13,704 nt of DNA from Candidatus Aerophobota bacterium (GTDB lineage Bacteria > Aerophobota > Aerophobia > Aerophobales > AE-B3A), in contig DAOVGK010000065.1 of assembly GCA_030672445.1 (NCBI GenBank), forward strand, positions 1-13,704. The letters are read 5' to 3'. Of this stretch, positions 5,360 through 8,640 are shown piece by piece. How positions within the stretch are numbered: the first letter of the stretch is position 1; every line of letters starts with the position of its first letter. The translations under genes and the position numbers were made by a program. A model generated the notes under the pieces. That model was not told where the DNA came from, ran no database searches, and saw only the letters and a list, made by a program, of their open reading frames with translations.

Positions 5360-5698
5360 CTAGCAGGTTAAGTGAAGAGCTGCGATCGTTTTCTTCGTTT
5401 TACAGAGCTGGTTATAGATCTGGCAGGCTGATGGGGTAGGTTTCACTCTTATCTCTATCCCCCGTGACTGAACCCACTCTTGGGTAGTAGCAGGAATTCT
5501 CATTAGTCCAGGATTTCCTGTACCAATAACGAGAACTTCTGGATTCTGCTTTACTACCTCTTTTAAATCTTCAGGCAGGAGCAGATGTCCCTCTTTTCTC
5601 CACCAATGATCATCTATTTTATCTGGATAGATGATTACATCAGAGGTATATCGCTTTCCATCTATGATAATATGCCCAAATTGGTAAGAATCAATCAT
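5360..5698 (-). CDS. Mth938-like (NDUFAF3/DUF498 family) domain protein
   Basis: The 112-residue protein matches the single-domain Mth938-like family. It opens with a FGHIIIDGKRYTSDVIIYPD strand pair, followed by WWRKEGHLL and the diagnostic VLVIGTGNPGLMRIP loop. After that come a segment on intermediate helices (TPSACQIYNQL) and a short C-terminus. Eukaryotic relatives assist assembly of respiratory complex I, while the bacterial members have no settled biochemical role. The ATG at 5696-5698 has only a weak purine-rich upstream signal. The gene lies 79 bases downstream of HU on the same strand, separated by a strong hairpin, and 140 bases before the L34-like gene. It may be read through from the HU promoter. 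Confidence 0.85.
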   Translation of the reverse strand: MIDSYQFGHIIIDGKRYTSDVIIYPDKIDDHWWRKEGHLLLPEDLKEVVKQNPEVLVIGTGNPGLMRIPATTQEWVQSRGIEIRVKPTPSACQIYNQLCKTKKTIAALHLTC

Positions 5699-5728
5699 TT
5701 TTGACTTTCTAAGATTCTCTTAAAGGGA

Positions 5729-5759
5729 AGCTAAGGGAGTGAAATAATCTCCCTTAGCT
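5729..5759 (-). terminator. Perfect 11-bp hairpin after the HU gene
   Basis: AGCTAAGGGAG (5729-5739) and CTCCCTTAGCT (5749-5759) form a perfect 11-bp stem with a nine-base loop, 18 bases beyond the HU stop codon. On the HU strand the stem is followed by TCCCTTTAAGAG rather than a clean U run. It may therefore be a weak terminator, or a 3' stabilising/attenuating hairpin that leaves read-through into the next gene. Confidence 0.6.
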
Positions 5760-5777
5760 CCTCAGCGGTTTTTTTGG

Positions 5778-6050
5778 TTACGCTACCGCTTCCCTCAGGC
5801 TTCTTCCAGGTTTAAACTTAGGTACATCTTTGGCCGGGATACTTATCCTGGCTCTAGTCTGAGGATTCACGCCCTGACGGGCTTTTCTCCTCTGTACCTG
5901 AAATGTACCAAAACCAACCAAAGTAACCTTTCCCCCTCTAGCCAGAGAGTTAGTAATTGCTGAAGTCATGGCATCCACAACGTTATTTACATCTTTCTTG
6001 GCTAACCCTACCTCAGCAGCCACCGCCTCTACTAATTCGGCTTTATTCAT
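5778..6050 (-). CDS. HU family DNA-binding protein
   Basis: This 90-residue protein is a standard HU-type histone-like protein, which dimerises, bends DNA and compacts the nucleoid. The N-terminal helical dimerisation part starts MNKAELVEAVA. The V-T-L-V-G-F-G-T-F hinge follows, and the DNA-binding arm contains the R-x-x-x-x-x-N-P-Q-T motif seen as RQGVNPQTRARISIPA. The protein ends with VPKFKPGRSLREAV. A near-perfect ribosome binding site (AAAGGAGGTGA, complement of 6057-6067) sits seven bases before the ATG at 6048-6050, suiting an abundant protein. It has its own promoter at 6158-6186 and a strong hairpin after the stop. Whether it is HU rather than IHF cannot be decided from the sequence; the length and lone-gene context favour HU. 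Confidence 0.96.
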   Translation of the reverse strand: MNKAELVEAVAAEVGLAKKDVNNVVDAMTSAITNSLARGGKVTLVGFGTFQVQRRKARQGVNPQTRARISIPAKDVPKFKPGRSLREAVA

Positions 6051-6247: not shown

Positions 6248-6288
6248 GAAACCATTGACAACAAATAACCGGGCAAGGATTTTCAGAG

Positions 6289-8046
6289 ATGAAAAATCGC
6301 CGAAAGGCTAGGGAACTTACTCTCCAAATCCTCTACCAGATGGATGTAAGAGAAACTCCAGTAGAGGAGGCTTTAAATGTTATCCTTTCCCGATACCGAT
6401 TCAGGGCCGAAGTGAAGGAATTTGCCGAAAGACTCATTCGGGGAACCTCCCAGTTTCTCCTTCCTATCGACTTTCTAATAAAGAAATACGCCAAGAACTG
6501 GACTCTGGAACGCATGGCTACTGTGGACAGAAACATCCTTAGATTTACCATTTACGAACTTCTTTTTTTAGAAAATGTTCCTCCCATAGTCAGTATAAAT
6601 GAGGCTGTAGAAATAGCTAAACGCTACGGGACGAGCGATTCGGGAAAATTTGTTAATGGTATCCTGGATAAAATTCGTCAGGAAAGAGGTCCGGGAAGCT
6701 TCTTAAATTGGACTTACCTTAAAAACAGTCTCCAGAAGGATCCTTATCTCAAAGAACTCACCAGAATAAAAGGAAAGGAAAAACTCTGGTTAGTAGGAGG
6801 ATGCCTTCGTAATCTTCTGCTAGGTAGAGAAAAAAAGGATCTCGACATAGTGTTGGATGATCCGGAATTCAGAATTGTCCAGCTTTTTGTAAACCAGGTG
6901 AAGGCAAGTCTAGTTGTCTTAAATTCGACCTTGAGAAGAGTTGTCTTTCCTGAAAAAACCGTCATAGACTTCATTCTAAAAAAATCTCAAAGTTTGAAGG
7001 CCGATCTTCTTCAGCGCGATTTTACCATTAATGCCCTTGCTCTGGATCTGGATTTCCTCGATATGCCTCACTTAGCCTTGATAGATCCTGAAACAGGGCT
7101 GGAGGATTTGATAAATAAAAAAATTAAACTATTGAGAGAAAAATCCCTGGAGGAAGATCCTCTTCGTATGCTCCGTGCTTTTCGCTTAGCTTCCCAACTT
7201 GACTTTGAGGTGGAGGAAAAGGTTATCCATTTGATTTCCAGTAAATCTTCTCTTATTAAAAAAGTAGCCGGGGAGAGAATAAGAGATGAACTATGTCTTT
7301 TTCTGAAAAATCCTTTTTCTCACAGATGTCTGGTAAATTCTTCAGCAGGAGTCTTACTAGAAAAAATATTCGGACAAGCTCCAAATTTAGAAAACCTGAA
7401 AAGATTAGAAATTTTGTTGTCAAACGAGAAAATGCTGTCCAGGAATCTTAAAGAAAAGATTGATCTTCATTTGGAGACTGACGAAAAGATGATGATTTCA
7501 CGCAGGGATCTATTAAAAATTATGGCCCTGATTTTCTCCCCCGCACAGGAAAAACTCACTCTATCTTCTGCGGGGAAACGGTTAAAACTTAGCCGGGCTC
7601 ATATAAAAATCATGCAAAGAGTTGAACAGCTCTATCCTAAATTGAAAAAGATTATAGGCAGTCAAAAAAATACTCAACTTATAGCTGAGTTCCTAATAGA
7701 AGCGAAGAAAGAGTTGGTCGAAATTTCTTTACTCCTTCTAGCGGTAGATGTTAGTCAACCAGTCTCCTCGAGGCTTGTGATTCAACTGCTGAAAGAATAT
7801 TTTAAAAAATCTTCCCTTATTCTTCATCCACCCAAGTTAATTGGGGGAGAAGAACTGATGAAGTCATTGAGGATTCTTGCGGGGCCTGATATCTCTTATC
7901 TTTTAAGTAAAATCCACCAGGCCCAGGTAATGGAGGAGGTTAAAACAAAAGAAGAGGCCATCGAATACGCCAAGAAAATAGCTCATGAAATCGGCAAAGG
8001 AAAAGAGCAGAATCATATGATAGAGGCACCGCTACCGAGCAAGTAA
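6289..8046 (+). CDS. Fusion protein: NusB antitermination factor + class II CCA-adding/poly(A) polymerase-type nucleotidyltransferase
   Basis: One uninterrupted 585-residue frame joins two normally separate proteins. Residues 1 to about 133 are a complete NusB, the RNA-binding helical protein of the rRNA transcription antitermination complex. They contain the basic N-terminus RRKARELTLQILYQMD and the canonical VDRNILRFTIYELL...IPxxVSINEAVE..K..KFVNGILDKI signature. After a short linker, residues about 160-585 form a class II nucleotidyltransferase. They contain LVGGCLRNLL (168-177), the metal-binding DLD (184-186), QRDFTINALALDL (242-254), the nucleotide-selecting EDPLRMLRAFR (289-299), ERIRDEL (329-335) and a helical tail. 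No HD phosphohydrolase motif is seen. The enzyme would add or repair tRNA CCA ends or add A tails; which of these cannot be told from sequence alone. No stop or frame change separates the halves. The ATG follows a modest AAGGA. Confidence 0.9.
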   Translation: MKNRRKARELTLQILYQMDVRETPVEEALNVILSRYRFRAEVKEFAERLIRGTSQFLLPIDFLIKKYAKNWTLERMATVDRNILRFTIYELLFLENVPPIVSINEAVEIAKRYGTSDSGKFVNGILDKIRQERGPGSFLNWTYLKNSLQKDPYLKELTRIKGKEKLWLVGGCLRNLLLGREKKDLDIVLDDPEFRIVQLFVNQVKASLVVLNSTLRRVVFPEKTVIDFILKKSQSLKADLLQRDFTINALALDLDFLDMPHLALIDPETGLEDLINKKIKLLREKSLEEDPLRMLRAFRLASQLDFEVEEKVIHLISSKSSLIKKVAGERIRDELCLFLKNPFSHRCLVNSSAGVLLEKIFGQAPNLENLKRLEILLSNEKMLSRNLKEKIDLHLETDEKMMISRRDLLKIMALIFSPAQEKLTLSSAGKRLKLSRAHIKIMQRVEQLYPKLKKIIGSQKNTQLIAEFLIEAKKELVEISLLLLAVDVSQPVSSRLVIQLLKEYFKKSSLILHPPKLIGGEELMKSLRILAGPDISYLLSKIHQAQVMEEVKTKEEAIEYAKKIAHEIGKGKEQNHMIEAPLPSK

Positions 8047-8196
8047 CGAAGGCATAAATCCATTGCCAAACCAATTTATAACTCCCCTACCCAGCCGGAG
8101 AGCTTTAATAGTTTGGCCAGTCCAGGTTAAAAACAACTTCTGCCATAAAGTGGTTGCAATTTGCATTTTACTGAAAAAAAGAAAAGGAGGTGTATT

Positions 8197-8640
8197 ATGG
8201 AGTGGTTTAAAGGTGGGAAAATAGAGGATATTATTTTCGTGAGACTGGACTATGGAGATGACATTCACAAATGTGTGGAGGAAGTAGCTAAGAAAGAGGA
8301 TATTCAAACGGGGGTAATTGTTTCTGCAATTGGGACTGTGGATAAGTCCCGAATGCATAGCATAAACACTACAGATTTTCCACCTGAGGATGAAATTATG
8401 GAGTTTGTGGGACCCGTTGAGGTTGCCGGAATACATGGCATAATTGCTGATCATAAGCCCCATATGCACTTTACTTTTTACAATTACAGAACCAACAAAA
8501 CTACAGCCGGTCATCTGGAACCTGGTTGTCGAACTCTTTACCTTGCAGAGCTTGTCATCCTGAAAATCAAGGAAGCACCCCTTACCCGAGTTCTTCATCC
8601 AGAAAAGAAGGTTATGCAGCTTAAGAAAAAAGCTAGCTAA
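8197..8640 (+). CDS. PPC/DUF296-domain protein
   Basis: The 147-residue protein matches the PPC (plants and prokaryotes conserved, DUF296) domain. VSAIGTVDKSRM aligns with the family's SxIGTVxxAxL strand, VEVAGIHGII with its central glycine turn, and PHMHFTFYN with the conserved His-x-His metal site. AGHLEPGCRTLYLAELVI forms the terminal strand. In plants the domain accompanies AT-hook DNA-binding motifs; free-standing bacterial members have no firm function. The start is the ATG at 8197, with a near-ideal AAGGAGGTG ribosome binding site six bases upstream, rather than the earlier ATG at 8161, which has none. It lies 150 bases after the fusion gene, in a gap with no clear promoter, and 49 bases before the oxidase gene, so those two may form an operon. 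Confidence 0.88.
   Translation: MEWFKGGKIEDIIFVRLDYGDDIHKCVEEVAKKEDIQTGVIVSAIGTVDKSRMHSINTTDFPPEDEIMEFVGPVEVAGIHGIIADHKPHMHFTFYNYRTNKTTAGHLEPGCRTLYLAELVILKIKEAPLTRVLHPEKKVMQLKKKAS

Follow-up and report, generated by a model that had tools for sequence, protein, structure and literature searches.

A NusB domain fused to a probable CC-adding tRNA nucleotidyltransferase in Aerophobetes bacteria

We analyzed a stretch of 13,704 nucleotides (contig DAOVGK010000065.1 of assembly GCA_030672445.1, from a Candidatus Aerophobota bacterium), hereafter the window, in which a single open frame of 585 residues at 6289–8046 on the forward strand joins the rRNA factor NusB to a class II nucleotidyltransferase. 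Judged by comparison with related sequences, the fusion is real, old and unusual. We consider it probable that this one bifunctional protein serves Aerophobetes bacteria both as their sole NusB and as their sole CC-adding tRNA nucleotidyltransferase. An rRNA transcription factor and a tRNA 3'-end factor thus appear in one protein across the phylum, and searches of 17 of its genomes turned up neither in separate form. The fused gene and its parts, all on the forward strand, are as follows.

6289..8046, + strand: fused gene, nusB to probable CC-adding nucleotidyltransferase; 585 amino acids plus stop, assigned from domain matches and relatives
6275..6279, + strand: possible ribosome-binding site AAGGA, 9 nucleotides before the ATG, read from the sequence
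6295..6681, + strand: NusB domain, residues 3–131
6682..6780, + strand: junction, residues 132–164, near-fixed in length, with predicted helices at 141–150 and 152–160
6784..7125, + strand: nucleotidyltransferase head domain (PF01743), residues 166–279
6796..6846, + strand: motif A, from G170-G171 to catalytic D184 and D186; fixed in all 32 aligned fusions
6970..7014, + strand: shortened flexible-loop region, residues 228–242; 15 residues from the third carboxylate D227 to RDF
7015..7023, + strand: motif B, R243-D244-F245; invariant in 32 aligned fusions
7156..7167, + strand: motif D, D290-P-L-R293, the nucleotide-selecting residues; unchanged across 60 aligned rows (50 fusions, 10 relatives)
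7201..7332, + strand: RNA-binding neck region (Pfam match PF12627), residues 305–348
7525..7965, + strand: C-terminal body/tail domain (Pfam match PF13735), residues 413–559, without the HD motif of HD-type relatives

An earlier reading, made from the sequence alone, had described a complete NusB and a complete class II nucleotidyltransferase in one frame with no stop between them, and the domain scores and catalytic residues bear this out. Pfam matches to NusB (residues 5–129, E-value 2.6e-36), PolyA_pol (166–279, 5.3e-16) and PolyA_pol_RNAbd (305–348, 1.3e-6) all lie above their curated cut-offs, and tRNA_NucTran2_2 (413–559, 2.5e-6) passes narrowly, with 28 against 27 bits. The N-terminal half has the NusB fold and scores 144.6 bits with the NCBIfam equivalog TIGR01951 (nusB; cut-off 88.35). 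The enzyme half carries the class II set of motif A DxD, motif B RDF and motif D DxxR; G170, G171, R174, D184, D186, D227, R243, D244, F245 and D290-P-L-R293 show no variation across the 32 aligned fusion proteins. NCBIfam nucleotidyltransferase models match it far under their cut-offs, for example PRK13299 with 114.3 of 290 bits. The predicted structure of the whole protein has a mean predicted local distance difference test (pLDDT) score of 89.9 and a predicted template modeling score of 0.84. Block means of 93–96 pLDDT across the junction indicate that the model is confident there as well, and all 50 aligned fusions have 41–43 residues between D127 and G170.

The layout recurs widely among relatives, as the sequence-only reading had proposed to check. 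Our homologue search considered the best 120 of 1309 matches. Both PF01029 and PF01743 were found on 65 of the 66 rows P0002–P0067, at 43–97% identity; the remaining row, P0017, lacks an initial methionine and appears truncated, as do P0068 and P0069. The next match after the fusion rows, P0070, has 30% identity and no NusB. Organism names were available on six fusion rows, five of them Candidatus Aerophobetes and one Patescibacteria (P0048). The length filter of this search cannot return a stand-alone NusB, and the finding that none occurs separately rests instead on a domain search of the 17 phylum genomes. There, the NusB domain occurs in 12 genomes, once in each and always inside a fusion frame of 568–590 residues, except for one frame of 339 residues at a contig edge; a profile built from the fusion recovers the same 12. 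The nearest genome compared (G001), which has 36% of the window's sampled words in common, has this frame, likewise without a break, at 98% identity.

The fusion is not an error, in line with the earlier judgment that a sequencing or assembly fault was unlikely: among the closest homologues listed, 65 of 66 have both domains, at identities as low as 43%. We found no point in favor of two genes joined by such an artefact. Copies occur in 12 separate genomes, 11 complete and one at a contig edge, and no stop interrupts any of them. Together with 65 protein clusters with the fusion and a junction of near-fixed length, this leaves an artefact a negligible probability, and recurrence in independent genomes rules it out. 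A tree of 72 rows (34 fusions, 31 of 51 short-loop relatives described below and 7 of 16 DHH-type enzymes) places the fused enzymes in one clade with 100/100 support. The short-loop relatives do not form one clade, and a long-branched one of them, P0089, groups with the DHH enzymes.

Neither a separate NusB nor a separate short-loop nucleotidyltransferase was found in the 17 phylum genomes, and none shows adjacent nusB and cca genes divided by a stop near residue 140, the arrangement that the earlier reading had named as evidence against itself. NusB and the short-loop enzyme were both not found in G003, G006, G007, G008 and G012, all less than 90% complete, while the fusion is present in all four genomes of at least 90% completeness. 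This joint absence fits the loss from view of one gene. From these domain searches, the fusion takes the place of separate nusB and short-loop genes in the phylum. Beyond it, one contig scan with two NusB-derived patterns yielded five fusions among the best 80 of 568 matches, all labelled Aerophobetes, and the other 75 had at most 60 residues after NusB; rarer fusions outside the phylum may exist.

The identity of the enzyme half is indicated by its flexible loop. As described in two reports, this loop of class II enzymes switches the nucleotide pocket from CTP to ATP and is absent or shortened in bacterial CC-adding enzymes (PMC7014341, PMC3925840). We measured loop length as the number of residues separating the third catalytic carboxylate from RDF, and counted the references identically. 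The loop spans 14–15 residues in 68 of 69 fusion-set rows, the exception being P0069, which begins past it. The references gave 19 for the Aquifex CC-adding enzyme, 29 for both the Aquifex A-adding and the Thermotoga CCA-adding enzymes, and 31 for the CCA-adding enzymes of Bacillus stearothermophilus and Planococcus. The fusion therefore has the shortened loop of bacterial CC-adding enzymes and not the long loop of a full CCA-adding enzyme. A addition requires this loop, and a long one is found instead in a second enzyme of these bacteria. On these sequence features, the fused enzyme is most likely CC-adding rather than CCA-adding or a poly(A) polymerase. Of the earlier label, "CCA-adding/poly(A) polymerase-type", the class II assignment stands and the activity most likely does not.

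In an alternative that we regard as distinctly unlikely, the fused enzyme would add the whole CCA alone, and the second enzyme would be another CCA-adding or repair enzyme. The intact catalytic residues are compatible with this, and in the fold comparison the highest-Z matches of the enzyme half, 3wfo–3wfs, are tied with the Thermotoga enzyme and near the Planococcus CCA enzymes. From matching PDB titles to PMC3925840, we take 3wfo–3wfs to be the Aquifex CC-adding enzyme (AaS) and 4wby/1vfg to be the A-adding one. The short loop in 68 of 69 rows and the long-loop partner in nearly every genome speak against a complete CCA activity; on inspection by eye, the basic/acidic motif that precedes the loop was not seen in the fusion rows either. 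In favor of the alternative, two CCA enzymes are reported in one organism, Dictyostelium (PMC7432833).

The second nucleotidyltransferase is present in 16 of the 17 phylum genomes, including all 12 with the fusion, in frames of 859–921 residues apart from one cut at 441. Its occurrence qualifies the outcome of the proposed check for separate genes: no separate NusB or short-loop enzyme was found in these genomes, yet a distinct long-loop nucleotidyltransferase was. Its loop measures 29 residues in 15 of the 16, and the sixteenth was missed by the search pattern. In the one member scanned, we identified DHH (just below cut-off), DHHA1, CBS and nucleotidyltransferase domains, and the DHH-type member compared was closest to Thermotoga CCA (259 bits), followed by the Aquifex A-adding enzyme (227 bits). 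Such a long-loop DHH-CBS enzyme would be the natural A-adding partner of the fusion. Because the DHH member is closest to a CCA-adding enzyme, it is the co-occurring short-loop enzyme that suggests A-only activity. Among 82 tRNA genes sampled from ARAGORN matches in 30 loci of 7 genomes, with identical copies dropped, 41 lack an encoded CCA, so a real need for CCA addition exists.

The closeness of the DHH enzyme to Thermotoga CCA is also compatible with a different division of labor, in which the DHH enzyme alone makes CCA and the fused enzyme, steered to rRNA by NusB, tails other RNAs in a poly(A) polymerase-like or C-tailing manner. That NusB is an rRNA factor would suit this arrangement, and related short-loop proteins go by the name "poly(A) polymerase" in some sources. 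We nevertheless hold it to be very unlikely: the poly(A) polymerase subfamily model PcnB gives 78.8 bits, far under its cut-off of 305.65, and the entry title of 3wfo, a short-loop relative of solved structure, calls it a tRNA-processing enzyme; we take it as the Aquifex CC-adding enzyme described in PMC3925840.

On the NusB side, NusA and S10 are present in all 17 phylum genomes, and a 16S rRNA gene could be located in seven, six of which hold the fusion (G008 has no fusion gene). In all seven, the 16S–23S spacer runs tRNA-Ile, tRNA-Ala and then a boxA-like TTGCTCTTTGA, which lies 11–102 nucleotides after tRNA-Ala. A first scan, with the E. coli boxA core, covered three of these loci, those in one orientation; the spacer site had one mismatch in each, and a leader site near -60 tied for best in two and was not best in one. 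The core was adjusted after seeing this result, and a second scan covered all seven loci. The TTGCTCTTTGA-type spacer site then showed no mismatch in six and one in the seventh, a result that no more than 2 of 300 simple shuffles equalled, while a leader site at -56 to -63 showed 0, 0, 0, 1, 2, 2 and 2 mismatches, matched by 0 to 17 of 300 shuffles. NusB–NusE binds boxA, and in E. coli such elements lie in the leader and spacer of the rRNA genes, according to PMC6614801. From the spacer sites and this precedent, the NusB half probably keeps its usual target, with these sequences as candidate boxA sites. In four of the seven genomes (G004:C41, G008:C1, G009:C17 and G010:C58), the gene for the DHH-type enzyme precedes the 16S gene by approximately 5–8 kb on the same strand; the remaining three have it on another contig.

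A NusB half that has lost its antitermination role and instead gives the tRNA enzyme a grip on RNA, as may happen in RsmB, would be compatible with a CC-adding enzyme. We judge it highly improbable, as the fusion scores above the true-NusB equivalog cut-off and below those of the RsmB models, contains the sole NusB of every genome in which a NusB was found, and coexists with NusA, S10 and boxA-like sites. An RsmB-type NusB domain was likewise not seen in the 17 phylum genomes, each having at most a single PF01029 match.

Taken together, we propose that the NusB half would pair with NusE (ribosomal protein S10) and bind boxA in rRNA transcripts, that the C-terminal half would add C74 and C75 to tRNAs, and that the DHH-CBS enzyme would then add A76. 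Most likely the two activities operate side by side, and the fusion holds them in fixed proportion. The sequence-only reading had suggested a joint role in stable-RNA maturation, and such coupling is plausible. In its more specific form, NusB–NusE on the boxA of a nascent rRNA operon would hold the CC-adding enzyme in place, and tRNA or rRNA ends could receive CC, or be checked, on release, because the boxA-like site follows tRNA-Ala so closely in all seven spacers. We consider this rather unlikely; by reading of the loci, 11 of the 14 spacer tRNAs encode their own CCA, which weighs against it. If true, antitermination and tRNA 3'-end maturation would be linked directly within one molecule. 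A lasting fusion hints at joint work or matched amounts of two housekeeping factors, and provides a simple system in which to look for physical coupling between antitermination on rRNA and the maturation of tRNA ends.

Both halves belong to known families, and their layout is on record as Pfam domains in a protein database, as far as we have seen undiscussed; in the open-licence literature, we found no description of a NusB–nucleotidyltransferase architecture or of a link between the two functions. Stand-alone NusB (TIGR01951/PF01029), such as that of Thermotoga maritima (1tzt), resembles the fusion over the whole domain, with 46–47% identity over 137 residues, whereas the fusion bears an enzyme of approximately 450 residues at its C-terminus. 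The Aquifex aeolicus AaS, presumably CC-adding, shares the class II core, the short loop and an aligned C-terminal tail. It differs in lacking NusB, in a loop of 19 rather than 14–15 residues, and in the HD motif, which 3wfo keeps and the fusion rows do not. The nearest non-fusion relatives are stand-alone short-loop nucleotidyltransferases, many of HD type (P0070 and its kin), at approximately 30% identity; P0070 matches 3wfo at 3.4e-59. They share the short loop (10 of 10 aligned; a third-carboxylate D and a 15-residue loop in 48 of 51), but lack NusB, and by eye have the HD motif in 7 of 10 aligned proteins against 0 of 50 fusions.

The earlier statement that NusB is normally stand-alone does not hold for the whole family. 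In RsmB/Fmu (1sqg), too, a NusB-type fold precedes an RNA-modifying enzyme in the chain, although the enzyme there is an rRNA methyltransferase, and a NusB–PHP fusion (P0112) appeared among our matches. Among 75 loci with a stand-alone nusB (L050–L124, many of which are short), four from Omnitrophota (L078, L087, L105 and L121) have a nucleotidyltransferase gene 5.6–7.4 kb downstream of nusB on the same strand. Read by eye, these four runs comprise ribH, nusB, PHP (in three), ribD, ribE and a recombinase-like gene near the end, and P0112 is consistent with the joining of such nusB–PHP neighbors. The nusB and nucleotidyltransferase genes may once have been near neighbors as well.

A separate enzyme made from an internal start was considered and rejected for the window, where codons 126–185 contain no in-frame ATG, GTG or TTG. 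In 12 stretches from relatives, TTG or GTG codons are scattered through this interval, with codon 168 recurring in six (by our count), and none has a ribosome-binding-like site at a normal distance from codon 168. A nearer site occurs in single cases, at codon 178 in L157, 177 in L163 and 185 in L159, and starts there would remove the glycines of motif A. In relatives with such codons, too, a separate product is unlikely.

Elsewhere in the window, a mechanically called open reading frame of 188 residues (8032–8598, reverse strand) shares sequence with the end of the fusion gene and with a PCC-domain gene on the other strand, and is likely spurious. HU-like and DUF498-like genes, named by eye, lie divergent to the fusion gene at 5360–6050; of the 12 stretches from relatives, which include several short contigs, seven have a divergent HU gene and six have DUF498.
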